NCBI GenBank assembly: GCA_030589895.1
Contig: JAUUZQ010000008.1
Location: 1-60,931 of the forward strand
Origin: Bacteroidales bacterium
GTDB lineage: Bacteria; Bacteroidota; Bacteroidia; Bacteroidales; GCA-2748055
DNA length: 60,931 bases
Direction: 5' to 3'
The position numbers and the translations under genes were made by a program. Under the pieces are notes generated by a model. That model did no database searches and was not told the origin of the DNA. It was given only the letters and a program-made list of their open reading frames with translations. Numbering within the stretch: the first letter of the stretch is position 1; the number at the start of each line of letters is the position of its first letter. Positions 23,289 through 38,646 of the stretch are shown here, one piece after another.

Positions 23289-23795
23289 ATGAAAAAACTA
23301 TCTGTCATAATTCTTCTGATCACAGGCTTCTTATACCAGTGCCAGAAAACTCCTGTTTATCCGGATCAGCCGATCATAGATTATGAAAGTTTTAGTCTCT
23401 ACATTAGCATTAACAGTCTGGATCAGGAGGTATTGACAGGAAAAATCAACTTTAGTTTTACTGATGGAGATGGTAATATTGGGTTCGAGCCAGAAGCTGA
23501 CACCTCTTCCTTTGAGCTTCCTGATAGTCTTCGATATAATCTATTCCTCCAACTATATGACTACCACAAAGGCGATTATGTTGAAATTCCGGAAGAAGAT
23601 GGGGGCTATCTTAAATATATCATTCCCTACCTGGATAAGCAACCCCTAATAGGTACGATTTCAGTAACAATTGAGTATCCCATTATCAATTACGATACAA
23701 TTTTCTATACCTTTTTTCTCTACGACAGGGATTTGAACAGAAGCAATACAGATACTACTGAGGTTAGGATATTGTCGGGGATAGAGCTTAATTAG
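23289..23795 (+). CDS. Hypothetical lipoprotein
   Basis: A 168-residue protein with a lipoprotein signal (LITGFLYQC, Cys near residue 18) and a single beta-rich domain containing FSFTDGDGNIGFEPEAD, a motif frequent in Bacteroidota surface lipoproteins, perhaps a calcium-binding-type loop. Function unknown. It follows der by 115 bp, with its own candidate -7 box upstream. Its stop codon overlaps by 4 bp the stop of the convergent 1052-residue phosphatase gene. Confidence 0.75.
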   Translation: MKKLSVIILLITGFLYQCQKTPVYPDQPIIDYESFSLYISINSLDQEVLTGKINFSFTDGDGNIGFEPEADTSSFELPDSLRYNLFLQLYDYHKGDYVEIPEEDGGYLKYIIPYLDKQPLIGTISVTIEYPIINYDTIFYTFFLYDRDLNRSNTDTTEVRILSGIELN

Positions 23796-26700
23796 ATCTT
23801 AACTCCCATAAAGAGAACATCATCAACCTGTTCAAGGTCCTCCTTCCATAAGAAGAAATTACTCTTGATATAATTGTACTGCTCATCCATGGGTTTATCA
23901 TGAATATCACGAAGAAGGTTCTTCAGACGCACCATTTTAAATTTCCGGCCGAGAGGTCCCCCAAACTGATCCGGATATCCATCTGAGAACATATAAATGG
24001 TATCACCCTTGCTTAACTGAAATTGCTGATTGGCAAACTCTTTTCCCGAATGATCATCCTCAAGTTGTCCTCCAACTGAGCTTCGGCTGCCTTTCACATA
24101 AATCTGTTCTCCGTTCACATACAATATTATCGGTCTCATTGCAGAGCTAACAGAGAACATATTGGTTTTCAAATTAAACTCAGCAACAATGATATCCATT
24201 CCATCATTTGATCCGTCAGTCTCCCTGTTTTGATTCAAGGCCTCGCGTACTTCGTAATCAAGTGTCTTTAATACATCGGAAGGTCTATTAATTCCTGGTC
24301 TCAGGCAGATATCCTTAATGAGAGTTGTTCCAATCATAGACATAAATGCTCCGGGTACACCATGACCTGTGGAGTCTGCACATACAATTATGAACCTGTC
24401 CTCATCAAATTTATCATACCAGTAGAAATCACCACTCACAATATCCCTTGGTTGATAAAATACAAATGATCCAGAGAAAGTATTGTGTAATTTTTTAATT
24501 GGAGGAAGAATACTTGCCTGAATACGCTGTGCATAATTAATACTGTCGGTGATATCCCTGTTCTTTATCTCTATCTCCTCTTTTTGATGCACAACCTCCC
24601 TGGTTCTCTCATCCAGCTGTTGCTCAAGGTATTCCTGCAGCGCTTTTTGCTTTTGTTCCCTGATTTTAATGATCATAAATACACTAACAATAGCAAGGAC
24701 TACAACAGAAACAATAAACCACCACGCTTTCCAGATAGGAATTTTCACAGATATATGTAAGAGAGATACTTCACTGCAATTTCCATTTCCATCACATGCC
24801 TTCAACAAAAATGTATATTGTCCATCTTCAAGTCTCGGATACCTGGCAAAAGTTTCACGTGCAGGATCAGACCAATCAATATCAAAACCATCGAGCTTAT
24901 ACTGGTATGTAACCTGATCCGGATTACTCAAATTTATACCTACAAAATCGATACGAACCTTATATGCTCCATATGGGAGCTTTATATCAGATGAAGCATT
25001 ATATAAGGAATCTGAAATATTCAACTCTACAATACTTAATCTTGGTGAAATGCTATCAATCCTTGCCTTATGAGAATCATAAGTAATAATTCCATTATTC
25101 GTTCCGAATAGCATAAGACCTTCATCATTCACATCAATCGCACGGTATAATATATCTGAAGTAAAACCTGTTTCAGGTCCAAATACAGCAATATTTTTTG
25201 ACTCAGGATCAATCCTGCTCAAACCCAGCCGATGGCCAACCCAGATAAATCCATTTGGATCGACACCTACGGCATAAGTATATTTTGCCTTTAAACCATT
25301 CTCTTCATTAAATACTGCAATTGAATCCTGATCAAATTTAAAAACACCATCCTCCTTGGTAGCTGCCCAGATATTTCCGGCATCATCCTCTATCATATCT
25401 ACAAACTCAAGTTTAGGATCTCCCTGAATACTATAGCTTAGCTCCTCATTGGTAATACACTGTATTCCACTTGACTTGGTGGCGATCCAGACTTCTCCAT
25501 TGCGATCGACCAAAACATCATTGATAATATTGTGAGGCAATCCAGTATTCGTACTTTGATTTTCGATAGAACCATCTTTCAAATCAACACTATATACACC
25601 ATTATTTGTAGCAACCCAGGTAGCCTCTTCACTAGCCACAATGCCATTTATCGATTTTCCAAGTGAATTATTGGCAATAAAAAATGGAGACAAATGTCGC
25701 AAACCCTTTTTAAGAATATAAACACCTGAATACTCTGTACCAATAAATAGGTTTTGAGATTCATCCTGAAATAATGCTGTAATTTTATCACTTGGTACTC
25801 CTGAAGAAGAAACATAAAACCTCCTGTTATCAGAATTGCTTCCATCAACCCATATCAAGAGTCCCTCACTGCCATACCAGTAATTATCGTCAATCATACT
25901 TATGGAAGAAATTGCAGGCACCTCAGTATCCTGTTCAAAATCATAAAATGTAAAAGCCTGATCACGAAGAACTGCTATACCACTACTCTGTGAAGCAAAC
26001 CATACATTTCCCTCATCGTCCTGAAATATCTCCTTTATATACACTTCAGGGAGACCGCTCTTTTCATTAAAAAATAATCGATTCGATAAAGAACCATCCT
26101 CACCTGTCTGAAATCTGTATACACCTATGCCATAGTCACTTACCCACACATACCCGGGGTCACCTGCAAAAACAGTGTTGATACTACTGTATTTCAATCC
26201 TTGATCTTCACCGGCCTTTACAGCAGTGTAGTTCTCCGGATTATCTCCTTTCCCATTAACATAGTATAATCCCTCATCTTCAGTCCCAATCCAATATGTA
26301 TCATCTTCCAGACCTGCTTGAATAGTTTGAATACGGGTATATGGTAATCCCGGTATTCTGCCGACATCCACGTATCTTGAAGACCCCTTTTCCGAACTAT
26401 AGATGCTAAGTCCATCAAATCCGCCAATCATCAGAAGACCATCACCCATCAGGAAAAATGTTGAAATAGCTTTCCCTGAAAAAGATTTCAGATCATAAAT
26501 CATAGACATATCAGGCTTTATAATAATCAAGCCCGATTGCTGTGTCATCGCCAGAATATTTCCAGATTCATCCTCAACAAAGCCTGCAATAATGGATTTT
26601 GAATCCCCTTCCGGCTCAAATACTTTGAAGTGATTATCAGAGAAGCAGCTAATCATTCCGTCCATATAGCCAAACCAGCTCTTTCCTTTGGAATCAACAA

Positions 26701-26950
26701 AACTTGCATGCACAATCGATGCTGGTAACACATCCCCGGTGAAATTAGATGTAAAGCTTTTTCCATCATAGCGGCATAGCCCTTCGGCTGTACCCACCCA
26801 AAGAAAACCGTCAGGATCCTGACTTATGGTGTATGTTGACTCATGACAAAGACCGTCAGCAATTCCAAACCTCATAATCTGAAAAGACTGTCCAAACAAT
26901 GCAAGCGATGATAGAGAGAGCAATAAGTTAAGGAATAGAACTCTTTTCAT
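23792..26950 (-). CDS. Propeller-sensor SpoIIE/PP2C phosphatase
   Basis: A 1052-residue protein: signal peptide (1-21, ALFGQ), then about 670 residues of repeats of the kind DxxGxxWVGTxxGL (two-component-regulator propeller type, e.g. DPDGFLWVGTAEGL and DVNDEGLMLFGTNNGI), a Y_Y_Y-like Ig domain around 690-740, one transmembrane helix (about 743-763), a coiled coil (about 768-810) and a cytoplasmic SpoIIE-type Ser/Thr phosphatase (about 815-1052). Metal-binding Asps visible at GDFYW (D840), CADSTGHG (D859), SDGYPD (D990) and VDDVL (1043-1044). Periplasmic sensing controlling cytoplasmic dephosphorylation is thus likely. Most propeller sensors carry a histidine kinase instead. It is the last gene of a tight surface-protein operon. 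Confidence 0.9.
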   Translation of the reverse strand: MKRVLFLNLLLSLSSLALFGQSFQIMRFGIADGLCHESTYTISQDPDGFLWVGTAEGLCRYDGKSFTSNFTGDVLPASIVHASFVDSKGKSWFGYMDGMISCFSDNHFKVFEPEGDSKSIIAGFVEDESGNILAMTQQSGLIIIKPDMSMIYDLKSFSGKAISTFFLMGDGLLMIGGFDGLSIYSSEKGSSRYVDVGRIPGLPYTRIQTIQAGLEDDTYWIGTEDEGLYYVNGKGDNPENYTAVKAGEDQGLKYSSINTVFAGDPGYVWVSDYGIGVYRFQTGEDGSLSNRLFFNEKSGLPEVYIKEIFQDDEGNVWFASQSSGIAVLRDQAFTFYDFEQDTEVPAISSISMIDDNYWYGSEGLLIWVDGSNSDNRRFYVSSSGVPSDKITALFQDESQNLFIGTEYSGVYILKKGLRHLSPFFIANNSLGKSINGIVASEEATWVATNNGVYSVDLKDGSIENQSTNTGLPHNIINDVLVDRNGEVWIATKSSGIQCITNEELSYSIQGDPKLEFVDMIEDDAGNIWAATKEDGVFKFDQDSIAVFNEENGLKAKYTYAVGVDPNGFIWVGHRLGLSRIDPESKNIAVFGPETGFTSDILYRAIDVNDEGLMLFGTNNGIITYDSHKARIDSISPRLSIVELNISDSLYNASSDIKLPYGAYKVRIDFVGINLSNPDQVTYQYKLDGFDIDWSDPARETFARYPRLEDGQYTFLLKACDGNGNCSEVSLLHISVKIPIWKAWWFIVSVVVLAIVSVFMIIKIREQKQKALQEYLEQQLDERTREVVHQKEEIEIKNRDITDSINYAQRIQASILPPIKKLHNTFSGSFVFYQPRDIVSGDFYWYDKFDEDRFIIVCADSTGHGVPGAFMSMIGTTLIKDICLRPGINRPSDVLKTLDYEVREALNQNRETDGSNDGMDIIVAEFNLKTNMFSVSSAMRPIILYVNGEQIYVKGSRSSVGGQLEDDHSGKEFANQQFQLSKGDTIYMFSDGYPDQFGGPLGRKFKMVRLKNLLRDIHDKPMDEQYNYIKSNFFLWKEDLEQVDDVLFMGVKI

Positions 26951-26967
26951 TAGAATGGTATTAGTGG

Positions 26968-27945
26968 CTATTCTTCATCAAGAATTTCCAAAATTATCGA
27001 ATACTTATACTTTGGCACTCCGCCAATCGGACTGGTATAGAAAGGCATTGTCTCGTCAAACTGATTTCTTACGTTAACAACAACATTGTTATTCCTGATA
27101 GCTGGTTTCTTCTTTGCAAACTGAAAGTCATAGGATGTTTTCTTTTCCTCTTCCAGCACTTTTATCTCATCTTCCGCCCATTCATCTTCTCCTGAAACAG
27201 GTGTTCTCTGGCCTTGTCTTTCTCTGGAAACAACAATAATATCTCCATCTGAATCCCAGTCAAAATTTGAGATCTTTACTGTTAGTGTATTTTCATCTAT
27301 ATAAGGATAGATATGAGAAACCTCGCCGGCATCATTATGCATTCTGAATGAATACTCATATGCAAATGCATTTGCCCCTTCAATTGGAATATTCTCAGTA
27401 CCACTTGTACTTATATAATAGTTGTACATATTACCGTCATCACCAGAAATCCCTTCACATATCACTTTGAAAATATAGCTATCGAATCTATCCATATATT
27501 CACCTTCTGCAGGATTAAAGGGGCCAAAAGTATACCATTGATTATCATATCGGGGATTATCTCCAAATACTTTCATTGCCATAAGTGTGCCGCTTTTATA
27601 GTTTCCTGTAGGACTGGTCTCCCTCGCATCCACATCAGAATGACACCCTTTTCCTCCATAAACCTCAAACCTGCACTTTGTATTCCAGCGTCCGGCAATC
27701 TCATCAACTTTACCTCCGGTATCCGGATCGAATACCCTGATAAATACTTGTTGTTTAAAATCTTTGGGTATCTGGAAAAAAAATGCCTGGGAGAAATCAT
27801 CATCTCCCCAACTCGTCTCAGCCTTTAATCCAAATGTCATTAAATGAGGGATATTCTCCTCTATATTTGGAACCGGCTGCGAATTGGCCGTTTGAGCTAT
27901 ATATATGATTAACAGTAATAGAATAAACTTCCTCATTGCTTTCAT
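26968..27945 (-). CDS. Secreted protein of unknown function
   Basis: About 325 residues, with a signal peptide ending around ANSQ (MRKFILLLLIIYIAQTANSQ). The mature part is beta-rich with several Trp/Tyr and an acidic C-terminus (ILEILDEE); it includes DVDARETSPTGNYKSGTLM and a GDIIVVSRERQGQR segment. I do not recognise the family. I chose ATG 27945; the longer frame would start at GTG 27951, and ATG 27936 is also possible. It starts 68 bp after the PD40/PKD gene and ends 17 bp before the phosphatase, so it belongs to this operon and probably acts in the periplasm or on the surface. Confidence 0.7.
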   Translation of the reverse strand: MKAMRKFILLLLIIYIAQTANSQPVPNIEENIPHLMTFGLKAETSWGDDDFSQAFFFQIPKDFKQQVFIRVFDPDTGGKVDEIAGRWNTKCRFEVYGGKGCHSDVDARETSPTGNYKSGTLMAMKVFGDNPRYDNQWYTFGPFNPAEGEYMDRFDSYIFKVICEGISGDDGNMYNYYISTSGTENIPIEGANAFAYEYSFRMHNDAGEVSHIYPYIDENTLTVKISNFDWDSDGDIIVVSRERQGQRTPVSGEDEWAEDEIKVLEEEKKTSYDFQFAKKKPAIRNNNVVVNVRNQFDETMPFYTSPIGGVPKYKYSIILEILDEE

Positions 27946-28013
27946 TTTCACATTTTCATAAAAATATACAAAATTCGTGCAAAATAAAATAAAACATTCG
28001 AATTGTGTAAATT

Positions 28014-29414
28014 CTATTCTTCCGGAAGGACAATTATCTCTTTGAAAACAGCTTTGGTTTCAGGTTCAAATTTTCTTGAACGCACCTTCTCCTTTATACC
28101 CAAAACAACTTTATATGTACCCGGGAAAGTATAATGATGAGTCGTAAGCTCCCCACTGCTCTTCATACCATCTCCAAAATCCCAATAAAAACCTTCAATA
28201 GTAAAGCCCGGAAGATGTGTATTTCTGGCATTAAAGCTAATCTCCTCATTTACAAGTACAGTATCGCGGGAAACAATAACAGGTTGTTCTATCATGCGGA
28301 TCTGAACAAACAGGTTACCAACATCATACATAGTTGTATCTGTAAGCTTATTGTGTACATTGAAACTCAGCTTATAATCACCCGGACGAGGAAATGCATA
28401 AATAATTTCCAGACCCGGAATGTGCAGTGTATCATTAATGACCCATTCATATGAAAATATAGAATAATCGATGGAGTCGAGAGAATTCTCCCTGAATCTG
28501 TACTTCCACCTGTTCCTTTGGATAGGTCGGGGGATATCGAAGCTTGGAAAATCTGTGTAGAAGACGTATATATCCGGAGATCCTCTTCTCCTTTTTGAAG
28601 TAAAATACCCTTCACTATAGTCATCACTCATTATCAATGTGTAATCGTCGGCTACTGAATTGATAGGTGCCGGAAGTTTCACTGCATCGCTCCACTCTCC
28701 ATGAAACATATCACAATAAAATATATCTGAGCCACCTCTTGTATCATGTCCTTTACTACTGAAATACAATCTGCCACTGGAATGTAAATAAGGGTAAACA
28801 TCATCCTCAGGAGAGTTAATTTTATCTCCCAAATTCTCCGGAATACTCCAATGTCCATTGCTAAATTTTGAAACATATATATCATATCCTCCCCTGCTAT
28901 CCTCCATGTTGGCAGCAAAATATAATGAATTGCCATCAGCTGTAATAAAAGGTGTATAATAGGTATATTGAGGATCATTATGCTCAAAGGGCCTGATATT
29001 CACCCAATCATCATAATCTGCATCTGCAAAAAAGATTCCTGAAGTAGAAGTATTCTCATTCATCCGGGAATAACATATAAGCTTGTCATCATTAGCAAAA
29101 GAAACCGGACCTTCATGGAAATTTGATTTCAATGTATTTGAAAGAAGACTATATTTAGTCTCATACGAATATTCTTCTACTTTTGAGACATAATAAATAT
29201 GGCTGAAGTTCTGATCATCCTGATCACTAAAATTTTTCATTGATGCATCTGGTCTGTTGGACATAAATACAAGCCCATCTTTATAAGGGACCGGAGCAAT
29301 CTCCCAATCAGTATAATTAGAAAATGCCAATCGCTTGACACGGTAAAACCTTTGTCCTTCAGCATACTGAAAGAAAAAGGTAAAAAGGAGTAATATGACA
29401 ATACTTTTTTTCAA
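28014..29414 (-). CDS. PD40 beta-propeller plus PKD-domain protein
   Basis: A 466-residue protein with a signal peptide (FFQYAEGQ). The middle holds WD40-like (PD40) repeats: SNRPDASMKNFSD, ADGNSLYFAANMEDSRGGYDIYVS, SSGRLYFSSKGHDTRGGSDIFYCD, SEGYFTSKRRRGSPDIYVFY. The C-terminal 100 residues carry a PKD-type Ig domain (FYWDFGDGMKSSGELTTHHYTFPGTYKVVLGIKE). Such PD40/PKD proteins in Bacteroidota often sit beside PorP/SprF proteins and type IX secretion components; an outer-membrane or surface scaffold is inferred. The start is TTG 29414 (MKKSIVILLLF), with no in-frame ATG near, only 5 bp after the PorP/SprF stop, so it is translationally coupled. Confidence 0.85.
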   Translation of the reverse strand: MKKSIVILLLFTFFFQYAEGQRFYRVKRLAFSNYTDWEIAPVPYKDGLVFMSNRPDASMKNFSDQDDQNFSHIYYVSKVEEYSYETKYSLLSNTLKSNFHEGPVSFANDDKLICYSRMNENTSTSGIFFADADYDDWVNIRPFEHNDPQYTYYTPFITADGNSLYFAANMEDSRGGYDIYVSKFSNGHWSIPENLGDKINSPEDDVYPYLHSSGRLYFSSKGHDTRGGSDIFYCDMFHGEWSDAVKLPAPINSVADDYTLIMSDDYSEGYFTSKRRRGSPDIYVFYTDFPSFDIPRPIQRNRWKYRFRENSLDSIDYSIFSYEWVINDTLHIPGLEIIYAFPRPGDYKLSFNVHNKLTDTTMYDVGNLFVQIRMIEQPVIVSRDTVLVNEEISFNARNTHLPGFTIEGFYWDFGDGMKSSGELTTHHYTFPGTYKVVLGIKEKVRSRKFEPETKAVFKEIIVLPEE

Positions 29415-29419
29415 TTCTC

Positions 29420-30370
29420 TTAATAGTAAAATGGAACATTAGATCTTACACGCTTTCTGAGCTCATACCTAAGAACCAACTCAACAGATTGGTCATAATA
29501 GCTTGTTGTACTGGTCAATGAATAATCATAAGACACACCCAACAAAATCTTGGGCCGTATTTCAAGATTCATATTCACCGACATCATTCCGCCCGATTTA
29601 TAAATCGCTCCAAGCCATATCTTCTGATCAAAAAATCCAAAATTAATACTTAAAGCATAATCCATAGGATCTGCTCCTAATCCATACATTAATAAGAATG
29701 TTGGATTAAAAGTGAAATTTTCTCTTTGTCCAAATTCGTATCCGCCTGTTAAAACCCCTGTATAATTCTTAATTCCAGAGGTGTAATTACCTATAGAATC
29801 AAGGGAAAAGAAGTTAGGCACTGAGAGCCCAACAAATAATTTTTTTGTGTAGTACAGAACTCCTGTTCCAACTAATGGCAACATTATTGGATCAATATCC
29901 ACCTCATCATCCTTGAAAAATTGAGGATCATTAGCATTCAGAAAATTCTTATCAACCAGGGAGCTTGATGTTCTGGTCAAACCACCTGAAAGTCCAAAAG
30001 ATAGTTTCCCATCCTTTATGGGAATTCGATAGGCATAGTTTAAACTGAAAGAGTTGGTTTTAAGAGGTGCGTCGCTAAACTTCTCTCCAAACGTAGTCGG
30101 ATGTTGTATTCCATACAATGACACTCCCATGGCCACATGTTTGCCCCATGGCATTTGCACAGAACCCTGCTCATATGCAGGTCCGCCGGGATCACTAAAT
30201 TTTGTTTTCTTTATAAATCCACTAAAACTTAATACATCGGTGGAACCTGTATATGCCGGATTGTAAATCATCCAGTTATGTTGATAATTGCTCAGGGGAG
30301 GAAGATCCGATTCCTGGGCACTAGTCGACATTACTATAGATAACAATATGACAAATAAAGCTATGCGCAT
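29420..30370 (-). CDS. PorP/SprF-type outer-membrane protein (type IX secretion)
   Basis: A 316-residue beta-barrel protein with signal peptide (STSAQ). It has the family hallmarks: LPPLSNYQHNWMIYNPAYTGSTDVLSF, a GSVQMPWGKHVAMGVSL strand, SFGLSGGLTRTSS and a C-terminal LVLRYELRKR aromatic-ended strand. In Flavobacterium johnsoniae SprF is needed for secretion of the adhesin SprB, whose type B C-terminal domain is adjacent in the genome. Here it is adjacent (11 bp) to a giant protein with a type-B-like C-terminus, the same arrangement, so it is likely the dedicated partner or export adaptor of that cargo. Confidence 0.92.
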   Translation of the reverse strand: MRIALFVILLSIVMSTSAQESDLPPLSNYQHNWMIYNPAYTGSTDVLSFSGFIKKTKFSDPGGPAYEQGSVQMPWGKHVAMGVSLYGIQHPTTFGEKFSDAPLKTNSFSLNYAYRIPIKDGKLSFGLSGGLTRTSSSLVDKNFLNANDPQFFKDDEVDIDPIMLPLVGTGVLYYTKKLFVGLSVPNFFSLDSIGNYTSGIKNYTGVLTGGYEFGQRENFTFNPTFLLMYGLGADPMDYALSINFGFFDQKIWLGAIYKSGGMMSVNMNLEIRPKILLGVSYDYSLTSTTSYYDQSVELVLRYELRKRVRSNVPFYY

Positions 30371-30381
30371 TCCAACAAAAT

Positions 30382-33300
30382 CTATTTTCTTAATATTATA
30401 TATCCTGACTCTTCATAAGCATCTTCATCTTCCAGGTCGGTCATCCATACTTTAATTACGTAATAATATATTCCTTCATCAACAATATCCTCCGGCACAA
30501 TATCTATTTCCTGATCTTTCTTCGATCCCTTCCAAAGCACTTGAACCGCTTCACCAAAATCATCGGTAACAGTTCCCAGAATCTTTTCACCAGTCTCCTC
30601 ATCCAAAGCCTTAAGATCTTCCTGATTAACAGTCTTAATCAAGGTTCCCCAACTATTATAAATATAGCAACTAAAACGCAAGGCATTTTCAAGACCACGA
30701 GCTGCAAATGCATTATTCTTATTTCCAGCATCAAAATCAGGTGAAAATCCATCATACAATTCAAGTCCAAGTCGGGTTATACTTAATACATCAGAATATG
30801 GTCCGCATTCCCCGGCTTCAACTATATATTCAAACAGATAATCCTGACTTTCATTATTATAGAAGGGTACATCTATGTTGGCTGTTGTATCATCGTCAAA
30901 ACTCCCAATACTACCAATATTCTCCCATATTGCAAAGCCAGCATTTAGTGGATTGATCTGAGAATTCAAGTCATACTCATCTTTTACAAAAACTGAGTCA
31001 TAGTCAATCTTCAGCTTAATGGAACTTAACCAGGGCCGCTCATAAAATTTCACAATCTTCCTGTCCATACTTTCGCATCCTACACCCCCCGGATCTTTCA
31101 GTAGCCATTCGAATGCTACCTCCACCAGATCCGTTGTATCACGATTCAAAAGAGCATATGTTTCCCCTGTTGTGGGATTTTCAATATTTACAGAGGATGC
31201 ATTCTCTGGTATATTCAATATGGACCAATGCCAATCCTTTACATAGAAATCCTCAGAAAATTCGGTTTGTAATAATATTGAATCTCCGCAAACCTGAAAA
31301 ATACTATCACCCATGATTTTAGCAACAGGAGATCTGTATACCGTTATTACAACGGTGCTGTCCAGTTTAATTGCAAAACAGCCATTCTCATCTTCAATTG
31401 ATCTCAGTGTATATGTATAATCTGTCTGACCTGTTGATGTTGGGGAATGAGATATTAGAGCACCTGCAAGCTGGTCTGTCTCATCATCAAGCGGATTACC
31501 TACATCATAGGGGGAGTAATCTATCCCAATGGTATATGGACTCAATCCGCCTGCAATACTCACCTGCAAGCTAACAGGATCTCCTGCGCAATAGATATCA
31601 CTTGCATCAAAACGAGAAATTGATCCGGAGGGAATTCCTACCACTGGAATTGTCAAGGTATCAGAAATATGAGAACACTCACCAGAGTTAACTACACGTC
31701 TGAAATACCTTTGAATTTGATAAGCTTCCTCTTCATAATTATTCAGGGTATCAACGGAACTATAGAGAACAGTATCTATCGGTCCAAATGAAACACCATC
31801 ATCACTATCTTCCCATAAGTATGTGTACGAACCATCACCTCCAATAAGATTGCTTTCGCCATCTATAGAAAGTTCTGTCGAATCACAAACATAGCCCGGT
31901 ATATGCCATATTGTATCGTACTCAATCCTATTCTCAACATCAATAAGGATTGAATCGGTGTAAGAAACGCAAGTCTCTTTTCCAGCAGGAGAATAGACCT
32001 TGCGATGAAAATAAGTAGTCGTTTCCAATGTATCCGGAACAGGATCAACATTCAGACCCAAGCCAGTCCAATTGTCCTCACCGTGAAGACCGGTAGAACT
32101 TCTTTCCCATTCAAAATCAAATGAGTTATCTCCACCTCCCAGCAGTGTTGTGTTGGAAGCTTGCAGACTGTCAATATCAATATCCTGACATATTCTGTCC
32201 GATGTAGAAATAATGAAATTATTTGTGATATTCAGAAGCACATTCACCACTTTGAAATCGCTGGTGTCCTGACAAGCATTATCCTTACCGGACATCGCAC
32301 GCCTGCGGTAATAAGTAGTATCAGAAAATACACCAGGGTCATAGTCTTTCAGGTTGAAAGTGCCTGATGCGGTTGACCATAGAACAGCATCTGAACTTTG
32401 CAGCCACTCATATCTATAAACACCCTCCTCACCATCCAGTGGTGTACTTGCCTCAATTCCCAAAGTCAATGATATATCTTCACAAATGGAAGTATCCGCT
32501 GTTGTGATATCATTATTTGTTATGGAAGGCAAGACAATAATTTCTATGGCATCGCTGCTATCTATGCACATATTATTAAACTCTAAATCCCCAACATCCA
32601 TTCCTGAATAAACGACTCTTTTGAAATATGTTGTTGATTCCAGTGTATCTGAGAAGAAAGTAGCATTGATGCTGGAATCCGGATTAAATGAATTTGCATT
32701 GTTATAACTTCCATTCGCACTTCCACTTTGAATCCACTGATAGAGATAATCTCCATCACCACCTGTAAGAGGCAGCGCTTTTAGTGTATCCGGCTGTTGA
32801 TTGAAGCACACGGTGTCGATATCAAATATAACATTGCCTCCAATCTCTGGCAGCACAGTCACTATAACAAAATTACTTGTATCATCACAGACTCCTGACT
32901 CTATAACCCGACTGTAAATTGTTGTTTCGTCTAAGCCAGGGGGAACATAACCGGCAGTATCTCTTGTACCTGTAGCATCAGACCAAAGCGTACCTCCATC
33001 AGTACTTTTAATCCAGTTATAAGTAAAATCAGAATCAAACAAAGCACCACCTCTTATTGAATCCGGATGCTGATTAAAAGGAATGGCCTCAAGTCCGAAA
33101 CAAACAGTATCTGAAGCAAGCACATAATTACCTTCAATTTTTTGAAGAACCGTGTATGTAAGAGAATCATAAGCAGATAAACTACCACTTATTACCTTTC
33201 TTTTATACATGGTAGTCATCGTAAGTGGCTCATAAAAATAGTAATCTTCCCGGGTAATGGTATCAGGATACCATTTTGATGCAGTATCAGGTTTAAAAGA

Positions 33301-34809
33301 CCATTCGAATACATAATTATTATCCCCACCCTTGGGAGCAGTAGCATTTATTGGATCGGGTGTTTCATCGGAGCATACGGTCTTATCACCCGGAACCGTA
33401 TTAAACAGGAATCCATCCAAGGGTACTTTTAGATTGGTTATGAGACCTGATATATTTCCTGCACCAGCCTGTCCGGATGTTTGATTATCATACTTTCCTT
33501 GTGCGCCAAACCCTATCCCTTTATCCACATTCAGAGAATCAAATCTCATCCAATACACACCGCCGCCACCGCCACCACCCGGACCAAAATAATCAGTTCC
33601 AATAGTATTCCCTCCATCTCCGCCACTTGCATCAATATGCACATCTCCCTCATAATGAGAAACATCCAATATAATAGCTCCGCCGCCACCACCACCGCCG
33701 CCACTTCCTGATACAATATCTGTAACGGATTGTCCTTTGGCAAGTATAGGTGTAGCAAGACTCCCTTCAAGTGTATCAGCAATAATGATTACAATACCGC
33801 CACCGTTGCCGCCTTTTGATGCCGGGAAACCCGGATCCTGCGTGCCACTACCTCCTCCTCCTCCCATAAAAATCCTATTAGAGTATAGCTCATCTCCTGT
33901 GTCATTTGCATATAAGCCTTCGCTTGCAAATGCATATCCTGACTTCCCTTTAGTGACAGAGGGTTCGGCTAAAGCACATATTTCACTCTCACCTCCTCCA
34001 TCTCCACCAGCAGAGTAATTACTTCCTCCACCTCCACCGGAATAACGTGCATTTCCACCGCCTCCGCCATTGATCAGGCTCCCCTTTCCCCTTACAAAAC
34101 GAAAAGTGGTATCCGCTGCTCCCCCTCCCTTTAATCCTGCACTATCCATGGCTGCACTGGTATAGAAGAAATCATCCAATCCCGTCGGATCTAACGAATA
34201 ACACTTTCCTAATCCATACTCATCAACACCAGGATTCGCACCTAAAAAACCCTGACCAGAAACATCAATAGGCGCATTTAGCGTTAATTTTCCTTTTACA
34301 TAAAGCACTACCACCCCTCCAGTATTGCTAACCGGGTCCCACGGATCAGCTTTCAATGTTCCTGTCACTACAGCATTTTCATAAGAGGCCACCTTTATCA
34401 ACTGCCCCACTTCCCCTGCTCCATACTTCCTAAAAGATTGACCTGCAAAATCAAATCCTGTAGAATTATTAAAAACTATGGTATCAAGGATAATATCATC
34501 AATAATCAGCAGTGTATATTTTCCTACATGCCTCAGAAAATCTTCATCTGAAATCCAACCCTCCTTTGTATCATCCCGATCAACCACAAACCCTTTTGGC
34601 TGATATACCATGACAGTATCATCAATGGAAAATCCTACTGTACTATTTACCAATACAGCGTTTGCCACATCACTACCTTCTCTAAAAAGCAAACTGTCAA
34701 TAGATGTGTAAGAATTTACAATACCGGAAATAGACGATTGGGACATCAGCGGTGAATACACCAATGTCAGCACCAGAATGGTGAAAAATATTTTTACTGA
34801 ATCCTTCAA
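30382..34809 (-). CDS. Giant glycine-rich repeat protein, probable T9SS cargo
   Basis: A 1475-residue secreted protein, start TTG 34809 with signal peptide to about residue 24 (SPLMSQ). It has a beta-rich N-terminal part, a glycine-rich segment (roughly residues 235-435, blocks such as GGGGGGGG and GGGGGGGV), then at least six repeats of about 90-95 residues with the pattern C..GGDxxYxYxWxxSxDGxxW then TTYYRRxVxSGxCxDTS, and a C-terminus with FSPDFDAGNKNNAF, CYIYNSWGTLI and GIYYYVIKVW, a gliding/T9SS type-B-like sorting domain (diverged: normally FSPNGDGxNDxF). It should be exported to the cell surface by T9SS, with the adjacent PorP/SprF protein. An adhesin- or filament-like role is inferred. 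Confidence 0.85.
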   Translation of the reverse strand: MKDSVKIFFTILVLTLVYSPLMSQSSISGIVNSYTSIDSLLFREGSDVANAVLVNSTVGFSIDDTVMVYQPKGFVVDRDDTKEGWISDEDFLRHVGKYTLLIIDDIILDTIVFNNSTGFDFAGQSFRKYGAGEVGQLIKVASYENAVVTGTLKADPWDPVSNTGGVVVLYVKGKLTLNAPIDVSGQGFLGANPGVDEYGLGKCYSLDPTGLDDFFYTSAAMDSAGLKGGGAADTTFRFVRGKGSLINGGGGGNARYSGGGGGSNYSAGGDGGGESEICALAEPSVTKGKSGYAFASEGLYANDTGDELYSNRIFMGGGGGSGTQDPGFPASKGGNGGGIVIIIADTLEGSLATPILAKGQSVTDIVSGSGGGGGGGGAIILDVSHYEGDVHIDASGGDGGNTIGTDYFGPGGGGGGGVYWMRFDSLNVDKGIGFGAQGKYDNQTSGQAGAGNISGLITNLKVPLDGFLFNTVPGDKTVCSDETPDPINATAPKGGDNNYVFEWSFKPDTASKWYPDTITREDYYFYEPLTMTTMYKRKVISGSLSAYDSLTYTVLQKIEGNYVLASDTVCFGLEAIPFNQHPDSIRGGALFDSDFTYNWIKSTDGGTLWSDATGTRDTAGYVPPGLDETTIYSRVIESGVCDDTSNFVIVTVLPEIGGNVIFDIDTVCFNQQPDTLKALPLTGGDGDYLYQWIQSGSANGSYNNANSFNPDSSINATFFSDTLESTTYFKRVVYSGMDVGDLEFNNMCIDSSDAIEIIVLPSITNNDITTADTSICEDISLTLGIEASTPLDGEEGVYRYEWLQSSDAVLWSTASGTFNLKDYDPGVFSDTTYYRRRAMSGKDNACQDTSDFKVVNVLLNITNNFIISTSDRICQDIDIDSLQASNTTLLGGGDNSFDFEWERSSTGLHGEDNWTGLGLNVDPVPDTLETTTYFHRKVYSPAGKETCVSYTDSILIDVENRIEYDTIWHIPGYVCDSTELSIDGESNLIGGDGSYTYLWEDSDDGVSFGPIDTVLYSSVDTLNNYEEEAYQIQRYFRRVVNSGECSHISDTLTIPVVGIPSGSISRFDASDIYCAGDPVSLQVSIAGGLSPYTIGIDYSPYDVGNPLDDETDQLAGALISHSPTSTGQTDYTYTLRSIEDENGCFAIKLDSTVVITVYRSPVAKIMGDSIFQVCGDSILLQTEFSEDFYVKDWHWSILNIPENASSVNIENPTTGETYALLNRDTTDLVEVAFEWLLKDPGGVGCESMDRKIVKFYERPWLSSIKLKIDYDSVFVKDEYDLNSQINPLNAGFAIWENIGSIGSFDDDTTANIDVPFYNNESQDYLFEYIVEAGECGPYSDVLSITRLGLELYDGFSPDFDAGNKNNAFAARGLENALRFSCYIYNSWGTLIKTVNQEDLKALDEETGEKILGTVTDDFGEAVQVLWKGSKKDQEIDIVPEDIVDEGIYYYVIKVWMTDLEDEDAYEESGYIILRK

Positions 34810-34941: not shown

Positions 34942-37900
34942 TTATTCCTGTACAGGCAGGATTACATAAAAAGTAGTTCCAACATTGACTTCTGTCTCAT
35001 ACCATATTTTACCATTCATCGAGGTGACAATATTAGATGCAATGGCCAATCCCATCCCCATACCACTTCCCTTGGTGGTGAAATTGGGCTGAAAAAGTTT
35101 ATACCGGATCGCATCAGGTATCCCCTTCCCATTATCACTTACACTTAGCAAAGCATTCCCGTCATCTGTAAGCTCAAGCTTAATCTCAACAATCCCCTTC
35201 CTTTTCTCAGGGATAGACTGGATGGCATTCTTAACCAGATTGATAACCAGTCTTTGCATCTGCTCCTTATCTCCAAACACATTAATCTTCTCATGCTTCC
35301 CAATTTTTAAGATCACTTTAGCTGTCTCATTGTTCTGAAATAGCTGAACCGTATTCTCAAGTTTGGCTATTAGATCAATCCTCTGATTCATGGCCTTGGG
35401 CATCTTTGCGAAATCTGAGAACTCATTGGCAATTGAAGTGAGCGAATCGATCTGCTCAATTAATGCATGGCTCATCTTTTCAATCTGCTCTTCAATATTT
35501 TCATCACCCTCAGAGACCATCCTCATCAGATGCTGGACATTCAACTTCATTGGTGTCAATGGATTCTTGATCTCATGTGCAATCTGTTTGGCCATTTCAC
35601 GCCAGGCAGTCTCCCGCTCCGACTGGGCCAGTAGTTCAGCACTGCGACTCAATTCATCTACCATGAAGTTATACTCTTCCACCAGGCCATGGATCTCATC
35701 TCTGCCCTGATAAATGATCTTTTCATTCTTTTTACTAAAGCTTAAATGTGCGATTCTGTTTTGAATCACTCTCAGTGGCTGCGTAATTCTGTCTGCCAGA
35801 AATACACTCAGAAAGAGGATCAATAATAGAAGGATGACATAAATATTCAATATCGCCACCACCAGATTTGTTACCTCCTTTGCCAATATTTCAGGCTGTG
35901 TGAAGTAGGGCAAATTCAAATAGGCAAGAAACTGATTTTCACTGTTCAGAAGAGGAATATATGCCGATTGATAGCTCAGCTTCCCAATTTTCTCAGTGTG
36001 TATATAAGCAGAATAATTATCTCTGTCCAGCTTTTCATAAGCATCCCTGTCCATTCGAATACTCAGTAGCTGCTGGTTAAAGATCTCGAAGCGGGAAGAA
36101 GCGAGCAGGAAGCCCTCTTCATCATACATATTTATATCAGTATAGAAAACATTTGAAAACTTCCGCAGCAGTTCATTCAAATTATAATAACTATCTGAAC
36201 TCCAGTTCCTGAGATCTTCTTCATATTCCACTTTATGTACCAGCTCAATGTATACAGAACGCATTGTATTCTCCAGGTTATTGTGGTGCTTTGTCTGGTA
36301 TTGCTCTACAATAAAATAGATCGTGCCCGCACAGATAAAAACAAATGTCAGAAAGAGTATCCCTACCATGGAATACTGAATCTTATTTTTAAAGTTCCAG
36401 ATCAGCGTCGATTTTAATTTGGGCGCCGAAATTGCCAGATAGGAAAGCGTCAACAAAATGAAATAGAAGGCAAAAATATAGGACAATGAAATTAATTTAT
36501 CGACCAATGAAACAACCGGTGAGCTCACAATAACAATATTGTCTGCATCAATATTTAAGATGCTGTGCTTGTATCCACTGTGACGGGTCTTTTCAAACGT
36601 GGCCTTCTTTTCAGTATAGAAATCAGGAGTTAATCTATAATCAAACTCACCTCCACTGGTAACCAATCGACCTTTGTTATACCTTGCATACGAAAATGGC
36701 TGAGAGATACTGGATTCCCGCTCCAGCAAAAGTTCAGGATAACCAAGCTCCTCAGAAATAATTTTTGAATCGAGCTCAATAAACAAGGACATCTCTTCCT
36801 CATTCAGAAGAAATGAAATTTTTGCAAGGTAGGATATCCTGGCATTCAGATTATTTAAGAAATAGAACTCCGATTGAGGCACCTCCATCCCTTCAACAAT
36901 AATAAGGTCTTCAAAGAATGTGTAACAATGAAACCATTCATCCACCGGAGACTCTACAAATACACTATCTGAAGGTCGACAAAGTGTTATTTGCAGATCA
37001 TATTTTGTCCAGTATCCTGAAAAATAATTTCTTTGCAGATACTCGTAAACCTGATCTATATTTAAGTTTGTAAACGAGAGTCTGCTCATTAAAATGCTGT
37101 CACTTTTTAATGTTTCAGACATTTCACTAAATAGCATTTCAGCCACCACATCCCTCTCTGACGAATGTTTCACCAACTCTATTTCTTTCTGACTCTCAGT
37201 TTTCATTGAAGAATGTTTCTGAAGTTCCAGGGTGGAGAAAAGGGCGAAAAACAGGATCGGGAAGAAAAAACTTGAGAAACTGATTCGACTTATCCCAAGC
37301 CTCCTTATATATAATATTGCACCTGCAAAAAGAAGATAAAACAGAGGGGTAGCCAGCTCAATATGTAAGGTTTCTGAGAAGAAAAAGGGCGTCTGGACAA
37401 TTATAACTGTCAATATAACCACCAGATATTGATGAATTGGCCTGGAATACTTGTAATAGGAGATCGCCTTATCAAAAATCATACTTAAGGAGACGAAGCC
37501 CATTGCAAGAATAAACAATCCAATGAAAGTGTAGAGATCAAGAGAATTAAGCTTGAATGCTTCAAAGGAAATCTTTGAATCAAGCACCAGCACGCTCAAA
37601 ATATGGTGCAGAATAATAAACCAGAAAGATGCAACCAGGAGTAGCACAATGGACAGGGCTTGATGCAATTTCGTTGAAATACGACCTGATCTGTCAAAAA
37701 ACTTGTAAAAAAGCAGTACCTGCATTAAAACAATCAGTACAAATGCCCAGAGATTTCCAAGAGAAGAAAAGGTGAGATTTGCAAACAGATCAGGCTGAAA
37801 CAGGCTTGAGAGAAATATAATACCGGGGAATTCAAAATAGAAGATCGAAATAAACAAAAGTATAATAATAGCAATACTTGAGATTAACCATGTACTTCTC

Positions 37901-38646
37901 CCTGAACTTGATTCCCGGGAATAGATAGCCCAGTACAAAAAGCTGAACAATGCAATTACAGCTATAAAAAGGGAGATAAGTGCGAGGGTAATGTTCTGCA
38001 GATTTTTCCTGGGATTTTCACTGACATCCAAAGAAAAGAGAAACTCTCCCCGGCTATTGTCAATTCTATACAGGTGATCACCATGTTGGTTTGTAACAAC
38101 AATATCTGAACTGACCTTAAAATCATCCTGAAATGAATTTGAGAGGTACTCATTTTCATACGGATAGCTCTTTTTTATCAAAATCAGACCCAGAAGAATA
38201 CCATCCTCAGTAGTAGCATTGACCGAAACATAGGAAGCACTTTGAAGTTCAATAAAAGGTCTGTTTAATCTGCGATTCCAAACCGGTCTGATTGGAACAG
38301 TATGATCTGACCAATAAATCATTTCCCCTTTTTCAAAGTAGAAAATATAGATGCCCTTTTCTTCAGCTAAATTTTGATAATCAGACGAACGATCGTTCAA
38401 TACAATTTTCGGATCTTCCTCCTTGAATTTCTCAAGAAGCTGAATAAACTCATCTTCTATCACACTCTCTTTTTCGTGGAGAACTCTTTCAAATCTATCT
38501 ATATCTTTTTCATTATATGTTTCATTCAGGAAGTTTCTCTGAAGAAGAAAAAGAGCAGTTGTGAAGAGTATAAAAACTACTAGTGAGACCAGTGCATAAA
38601 TTTTCATTCTGGCTCTTGCGGTATCATTTAGAATATTATTAGTCAT
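34942..38646 (-). CDS. NtrY-like multi-pass sensor histidine kinase
   Basis: A 1234-residue histidine kinase. The N-terminus has a membrane helix (16-36), a periplasmic sensor segment, then a block of several helices (about 220-460), a second periplasmic region to about residue 720, more helices (including near 910-930), a HAMP domain (ITQPLRVIQNRIAHLSF), a dimerisation helix with the H-box IAHEIKNPLTPMKLNVQHL (phosphorylated His about 1024), N-box NLVKNAIQS (Asn about 1140), G1 DNGKGIP and G2 GSGMGMGLAI. The HEIKNPLTPM motif is typical of NtrY-type kinases. No response regulator is adjacent. It begins 52 bp after rlmH and ends 132 bp before the giant cargo gene. Confidence 0.9.
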   Translation of the reverse strand: MTNNILNDTARARMKIYALVSLVVFILFTTALFLLQRNFLNETYNEKDIDRFERVLHEKESVIEDEFIQLLEKFKEEDPKIVLNDRSSDYQNLAEEKGIYIFYFEKGEMIYWSDHTVPIRPVWNRRLNRPFIELQSASYVSVNATTEDGILLGLILIKKSYPYENEYLSNSFQDDFKVSSDIVVTNQHGDHLYRIDNSRGEFLFSLDVSENPRKNLQNITLALISLFIAVIALFSFLYWAIYSRESSSGRSTWLISSIAIIILLFISIFYFEFPGIIFLSSLFQPDLFANLTFSSLGNLWAFVLIVLMQVLLFYKFFDRSGRISTKLHQALSIVLLLVASFWFIILHHILSVLVLDSKISFEAFKLNSLDLYTFIGLFILAMGFVSLSMIFDKAISYYKYSRPIHQYLVVILTVIIVQTPFFFSETLHIELATPLFYLLFAGAILYIRRLGISRISFSSFFFPILFFALFSTLELQKHSSMKTESQKEIELVKHSSERDVVAEMLFSEMSETLKSDSILMSRLSFTNLNIDQVYEYLQRNYFSGYWTKYDLQITLCRPSDSVFVESPVDEWFHCYTFFEDLIIVEGMEVPQSEFYFLNNLNARISYLAKISFLLNEEEMSLFIELDSKIISEELGYPELLLERESSISQPFSYARYNKGRLVTSGGEFDYRLTPDFYTEKKATFEKTRHSGYKHSILNIDADNIVIVSSPVVSLVDKLISLSYIFAFYFILLTLSYLAISAPKLKSTLIWNFKNKIQYSMVGILFLTFVFICAGTIYFIVEQYQTKHHNNLENTMRSVYIELVHKVEYEEDLRNWSSDSYYNLNELLRKFSNVFYTDINMYDEEGFLLASSRFEIFNQQLLSIRMDRDAYEKLDRDNYSAYIHTEKIGKLSYQSAYIPLLNSENQFLAYLNLPYFTQPEILAKEVTNLVVAILNIYVILLLLILFLSVFLADRITQPLRVIQNRIAHLSFSKKNEKIIYQGRDEIHGLVEEYNFMVDELSRSAELLAQSERETAWREMAKQIAHEIKNPLTPMKLNVQHLMRMVSEGDENIEEQIEKMSHALIEQIDSLTSIANEFSDFAKMPKAMNQRIDLIAKLENTVQLFQNNETAKVILKIGKHEKINVFGDKEQMQRLVINLVKNAIQSIPEKRKGIVEIKLELTDDGNALLSVSDNGKGIPDAIRYKLFQPNFTTKGSGMGMGLAIASNIVTSMNGKIWYETEVNVGTTFYVILPVQE

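Follow-up and report, generated by a model that had tools for sequence, protein, structure and literature searches.

The locus described here raises the question of why the gene for a transmembrane sensor phosphatase should stand at the end of an operon that begins with a secreted, adhesin-like protein, and whether the proteins encoded between them connect the two. The window, that is, the whole stretch of DNA analysed, is contig JAUUZQ010000008.1 (60,931 nt) of a Bacteroidales bacterium of the family GCA-2748055. Five genes, A to E, are encoded in that order on its minus strand, and the 3′ end of E overlaps a convergent gene by 4 bp, as a first-pass annotation of the DNA had described (Table 1). 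The intergenic gaps are 11 bp (A-B), 5 bp (B-C), 62 bp (C-D) and 17 bp (D-E). The annotation had listed 11, 5, 68 and 17 bp; the first, second and fourth values stand, and 68 bp is obtained for C-D only if D begins at its ATG rather than at its GTG.

Table 1. Genes of the A-E operon and the genes flanking it, in window coordinates
Feature	Coordinates	Strand	Remarks
Histidine kinase, large, membrane	34942-38646	-	1234 aa; 132-bp gap to A
Gene A	34809-30382	-	1475 aa; TTG start
Gene B	30370-29420	-	316 aa
Gene C	29414-28014	-	466 aa
Gene D	27951-26968	-	327 aa; GTG start, ATG 6 bases further on
Gene E	26950-23792	-	1052 aa
Putative lipoprotein	23289-23795	+	168 aa; convergent with E

Across loci, the median gaps are 0 bp (A-B), 3 bp (B-C), 70.5 bp (C-D) and 11 bp (D-E), and in 71 loci the A-B gap is at most 61 bp, with the porP/sprF gene directly 3′ of the cargo gene. 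The promoter pattern TTTG-N18-23-TANNTTTG (Bacteroidota type) has no site upstream of A and shows no excess over chance. On the downstream side, the 168-aa putative lipoprotein, which has no Pfam match, is a syntenic boundary within the family (37-76% identity there) and lies outside the module. On the upstream side, a histidine kinase gene directly precedes the cargo gene in 42 of 47 judgeable loci, at a median gap of 129 bp; the 1234-aa kinase is possibly a sixth member of the module, perhaps with its own transcript.

The protein encoded by gene A is composed of a signal peptide, a Gly-rich N-terminal domain like AgmC-N (residues 28-420), a repetitive Cys-containing middle region and a CHU_C (type B) C-terminus. 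The C-terminal match to PF13585 (30.9 bits) is barely above the Pfam cut-off of 27, and A has no match to TIGR04131 even at E ≤ 1; two orthologues of A (L100 and L144) exceed the cut-off of this second profile. The AgmC_N scores, 150 bits in A and 173-203 bits in orthologues, fall under the cut-off of 275 set for this equivalog_domain profile and may be inflated by the Gly-rich composition, and A was not filed as AgmC. No paper connecting AgmC with Myxococcus was found in the open-licence PMC literature. By its domains, A is classed as a secreted, adhesin-like T9SS type B cargo. Gene B matches the PorP/SprF profiles PF11751 (136 bits) and TIGR03519 (157.2 bits, cut-off 90.55), and its product is a predicted outer-membrane shuttle or anchor of this family. 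The product of gene C, predicted to be periplasmic, contains a PD40 propeller and a PKD domain, and its similarity to PorE/CHU_0125 (128-151 bits) is confined to the propeller half, the OmpA domain being absent. It may be termed PorE-like; it was not filed as PorE itself, given a propeller-only match of 128 bits against a cut-off of 600, the presence of PKD and the lack of OmpA. An OmpA domain is found in the counterparts of C in L055-L057, L215, L221-L223 and L225.

Gene E encodes a signal peptide, a double Reg_prop propeller followed by Y_Y_Y, as in HTCS sensors, a hydrophobic membrane stretch, a coiled coil and a SpoIIE/PP2C domain. Residues 9-741 align with the periplasmic two-component sensor 4a2l (E=1.8e-42), which we take to be BT4663, and residues 774-1048 align with the phosphatase 6k4e (E=1.4e-30), presumably the PP2C domain of SiaA; the latter accords with a match of residues 770-1050 to the SiaA profile NF038263 at 167 bits. 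Small ligands are what the HTCS relatives of E usually bind, a point against the device proposed below. The SpoIIE profile PF07228 is matched at 64.2 bits (cut-off 25), and the catalytic motifs SGD, DxTGHGxPG, DG and DD are intact. Of 80 E proteins, 75 carry all four motifs; the exceptions are four sequences truncated at a contig end and a single protein with ATDG, a variant that the motif pattern did not cover. E was classed neither as SiaA, since it scores 167 bits against 700 and SiaB and SiaC are not encoded adjacently, nor as an HTCS, since its output is SpoIIE/PP2C and not a histidine kinase, receiver and DNA-binding domain in one chain. For A, B, C and E, the domains named in the first-pass annotation agree with the Pfam and NCBIfam profiles; D has no profile with which to compare it.

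Gene D has no relative in Pfam, NCBIfam or the PDB sequences, and no other member of the module is as well conserved. Its product is secreted or periplasmic by prediction. The AlphaFold model, built with 67 sequences (mean pLDDT 93, pTM 0.88), comprises a signal peptide helix and an all-β body that reads as two β-sandwich domains. Fold searches of PDB and viral structures returned just weak β-sandwich matches, none with a TM-score above 0.30, and assignment of D to a known binding protein was rejected on these fold matches and the lack of sequence relatives. The conserved Asp-rich loops WGDDD, DPD.GG and GDDGN could bind calcium. No paper on the D family, or on a propeller-PP2C linked to a T9SS adhesin operon, was found in the open-licence PMC literature.

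Relatives of D numbered 436 in a scan that covered 84,980 species genomes. The best 80 of these 436 are all Bacteroidota MAG records, are biased towards close relatives and include some of the family genomes already counted. Within the class, D is present in 40 of 295 genomes and SprA in 286 of 295, and T9SS presence was therefore rejected as a discriminator. The D domain is rare elsewhere in the phylum: in a draw of 296 genomes it was found in seven outside the class, as the N-terminal part of proteins with PKD repeats that are about 1000-1650 aa long. The gene for such a D-PKD protein lies beside a HAMP kinase and an RR-SpoIIE protein in L228, beside an RR-SpoIIE protein and a kinase in L231, beside a kinase in L229 and beside a guanylate cyclase in L230, and FecR proteins also adjoin D-PKD genes in other classes. 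In these clusters D is linked to signalling proteins, among them PP2C, for a second time and separately from the A-E module. The D-PKD fusions of L228, L229, L230, L231 and L232, with FecR/Glucodextran_B proteins, a HAMP kinase, an RR-SpoIIE protein or a guanylate cyclase as neighbours, were noted as an uncharacterised signalling cluster of its own in another class of the phylum. Short solitary homologues of D (~240 aa) were also observed (L060:6944-7654 and L059:12022-12753), one of them in the host genome itself (G000:C6), adjoining a WYL/WCX-domain gene.

The arrangement of the module is strongly conserved. D is found in 25 of 28 host-family genomes, and in 10 of the 10 that are ≥90% complete and ≤5% contaminated, and the order kinase-A-B-C-D-E is observed in every family genome where the contig permits. 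Sequence identities within the family are 62-74% for D and mostly 50-63% for E; those of the cargo and PorP are only about 30%. Most of the best 80 loci have the order cargo (AgmC-N and CHU_C), PorP, PD40, D, propeller-PP2C, with varying flanks. The five genes are thus adjacent in the family and in most of these loci, not rarely, which was the outcome of the co-occurrence search that the first-pass annotation had proposed, and because the order recurs in both sets the arrangement is far beyond chance. General synteny was rejected as the explanation: the flanks change between locus groups while the module persists, and paralogous modules occur in unrelated contexts. Among 105 D loci, seven have D at a contig end, and E lies directly after D in 93 of the remaining 98 and not in five (92 were counted by script, to which L210, whose E is cut by a contig end, was added). 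The phosphatase gene hence belongs to the unit and is not an independent neighbour. The proposal that cargo, export partner and propeller phosphatase constitute one unit is strongly supported by the conserved order, the tiny gaps and the paralogous recurrence.

Several variants of the module were observed. Of 20 loci from a class-wide draw, 13 have D-E, five have D without E, and in two the contig ends at D. The order cargo-PorP-PD40(-OmpA)-D-E is seen in L215, L221, L222, L223, L225 and L226, the PorP of L222 having been confirmed separately. In L214 and L218, PD40/OmpA-D-E occurs without PorP; in L160, L219, L224 and L227, D-E occurs without cargo or PorP. Conversely, D is accompanied by a PD40 protein and lacks E in L208, L209, L211 and L212, and E is likewise missing from L220, where the order is cargo-PorP-PD40/OmpA-D. 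Two host-family loci, L055 and L057, contain a seven-gene unit with two cargo-PorP pairs, in the order cargo, PorP, PorE-like, cargo2, PorP2, D, E, and L056 is the same but cut by a contig end. The second type B cargo of this unit (L055:8824-11412) carries DUF2341, Laminin_G_3 and SprB repeat domains. In L058, also of the host family, the order is cargo-PorP-PD40-D-propeller, and a histidine kinase and response regulator replace the phosphatase; here (L058:3352-6934) the propeller sensor ends in the kinase and is followed by a single-domain response regulator. In L162 (2793-6884), PAS domains lie between the propeller and the PP2C of the module sensor, and this PP2C is of another lineage.

Phylogenetic trees indicate which parts of the module have been inherited together. 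L055, L057 and L058 form a clade both in the D tree (100/99) and in the propeller tree (96/96), and since the outputs differ among them, D and the sensor have been co-inherited and the output exchanged. Module propellers are set apart from two non-module propellers of the host genome (98/99), both of the latter on long branches. A clade of 18 module phosphatases is recovered in the PP2C tree (99/95), and on this ground the idea that one of the host's 21 SpoIIE matches was recruited at random was rejected for the main lineage. The phosphatases of L055, L057 and L162 fall among host-genome paralogues (96/93), and by this placement the output domain has evidently been replaced in L055/L057 and in L162.

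The host genome, in an assembly that is 88.9% complete, encodes three PorP/SprF proteins. One of the two outside the window lies beside a GldK/L/M-like set and the other beside PorU- and PorV-like genes, these neighbours being named by sequence appearance and not by profile. Both belong to the core T9SS on this evidence, which leaves the A-E operon as the only accessory PorP unit found in the assembly at this completeness. The same genome has 21 SpoIIE matches, five SiaC proteins, four STAS domains and one PP2C-SiaB(DUF6272)-SiaC operon. The five SiaC and four STAS proteins are candidate substrates of the PP2C domain of E. At L237:1-4339 (G000:C75), the genes for a PAS/GAF-PP2C, a SiaB-like DUF6272 protein and SiaC are consecutive, and a TerB-like gene comes next; the host has a SiaABC-type pathway, and no diguanylate cyclase was seen adjoining this locus.

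With a probability that we place at roughly 0.48, A to E form one envelope-spanning device in which an anchored adhesin, D as a relay and E as a switch act on a SiaC- or STAS-type regulator. A would be exported by the T9SS, taken up by its own barrel B and kept on the surface, with the PorE-like propeller protein C lying beneath B in the periplasm. D would serve as a soluble periplasmic relay or ligand protein that has the double propeller of E as its partner, and would convey to it the state of the surface complex or of a ligand bound nearby. E would be a one-piece transmembrane switch: when D, alone or together with A-B-C, occupies the HTCS-like sensor, the activity of the cytoplasmic PP2C domain would rise or fall, and this domain would in turn dephosphorylate the SiaC- or STAS-type regulator. 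Retention of the order A-E while cargo and PorP diverge to about 30% identity favours such a device. Because some D-E pairs lack cargo and PorP, the adhesin complex cannot be what E senses in all cases, and the five loci with D and no E mean that D has a role without E; what E senses, and that it informs the cytoplasm about the state of a surface structure, is accordingly something that we infer. The first-pass annotation went further, to a self-monitoring organelle, which exceeds the evidence; a wall-anchored adhesin complex is more likely.

A second reading, in which E is a regulator responding to a soluble ligand such as a glycan and D is its periplasmic binding protein, is unlikely but deserves consideration. 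The regulon of E would then include the adhesin operon, the adhesin would bind the same target, and the assembled structure would not be monitored. In favour of this reading, the alignment of E with 4a2l, an HTCS sensor, runs from end to end, and the tandem β-sandwiches of the D model bear a weak likeness to Ca-dependent and carbohydrate-binding domains, although with TM-scores of at most 0.30. The D-E pairs without cargo point the same way; however, shared regulation needs neither so tight a linkage to the genes for PorP and the PorE-like protein nor the recurrence of the set as a whole. More doubtful still is a passenger arrangement, a self-standing D-E sensor pair co-transcribed with a T9SS adhesin cluster and functionally uncoupled from it. 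The four loci with D-E alone, and the four with D and a PD40 protein but no E, are consistent with separable parts, yet the five-gene order survives the divergence of cargo and PorP, the flanks change around the module, and the module recurs as paralogous units. That A is a moving SprB-type adhesin whose motion or surface contact is reported by the sensor is improbable, for although its N-terminal domain resembles AgmC-N, of a family named for adventurous gliding, at a sub-threshold 150-203 bits that its composition may have raised, and SprF is the gliding shuttle in Flavobacterium johnsoniae (PMC12635249, PMC12618676), PorE-like genes in that organism accompany a static and not a mobile type B adhesin (PMC12618676), and the A-E operon has a PorE-like gene.

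Returning to the envelope-spanning device, a broader proposal, made tentatively, is that D proteins act in the periplasm as adaptors, linking adhesins exported by the T9SS and anchored by PorP to a double-propeller receptor with interchangeable outputs, PP2C or histidine kinase. If this is true, type B surface proteins would have in the D-based adaptor a general means of signalling from outside to inside, and D could be used to locate systems of this kind throughout Bacteroidota. PorP/SprF barrels and the type B adhesins of the T9SS are numerous, and no account of how the cell reads out their assembly or engagement was found in the searched literature; a real coupling would offer a path, open to testing, that leads from attachment at the surface to PP2C signalling.

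An operon that to our knowledge contains neither a propeller-PP2C nor D is sprC-sprD-sprB-sprF of F. johnsoniae. As far as the account of Rhodes et al. 2011 cited in PMC12635249 goes, it encodes a type B adhesin with SprF directly downstream, similar to A-B, and its product is a moving gliding adhesin, unlike A in the favoured reading. A closer parallel is PG1035-PorP-PorE of Porphyromonas gingivalis, a demonstrated complex with a type B cargo, a barrel and a PorE-like protein as in A-B-C; type B CTD proteins bind their own PorP-like barrel, and PorP binds PorE (PMC9143113). The same trio is found in F. johnsoniae operons of the Fjoh_3950-3952 type, in which type B substrate, shuttle and PorE homologue are encoded together, the cargo is anchored by the barrel, and the products are proposed to be static, wall-anchored adhesins; the mobile type B adhesins of this organism are not in operons with PorE-like genes (PMC12618676). 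The main differences are that neither system has a reported D-family protein or dedicated transmembrane sensor, both of which the A-E operon has, and that the OmpA wall-binding domain, retained in the wider relatives of C, is absent from C in the window. A-B-C thus matches a known type of complex, and D with its coupled sensor is undescribed in the open-licence literature searched.

The sensor half of E is shared with the HTCS of Bacteroidota (BT4663 type, 4a2l), which have the same periplasmic double propeller and Y_Y_Y. The output is a kinase-response regulator in HTCS and PP2C in E (a kinase in L058), and HTCS belong to polysaccharide utilization loci, whereas E belongs to an adhesin operon. 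Similar to E, SiaA of Pseudomonas aeruginosa (SiaABCD, PMC7647112) is a membrane-bound PP2C; E differs in its double-propeller sensor and in that SiaB and SiaC are encoded elsewhere in the host genome. PorA of P. gingivalis, which acts via PorY/PorX/SigP (PMC7712824), is an earlier example of a T9SS surface protein with an effect on regulation in the cytoplasm, as proposed for A-E. PorA is a type A CTD protein without a linked sensor-phosphatase, whereas the A-E operon combines a type B cargo with the linked sensor-phosphatase E.
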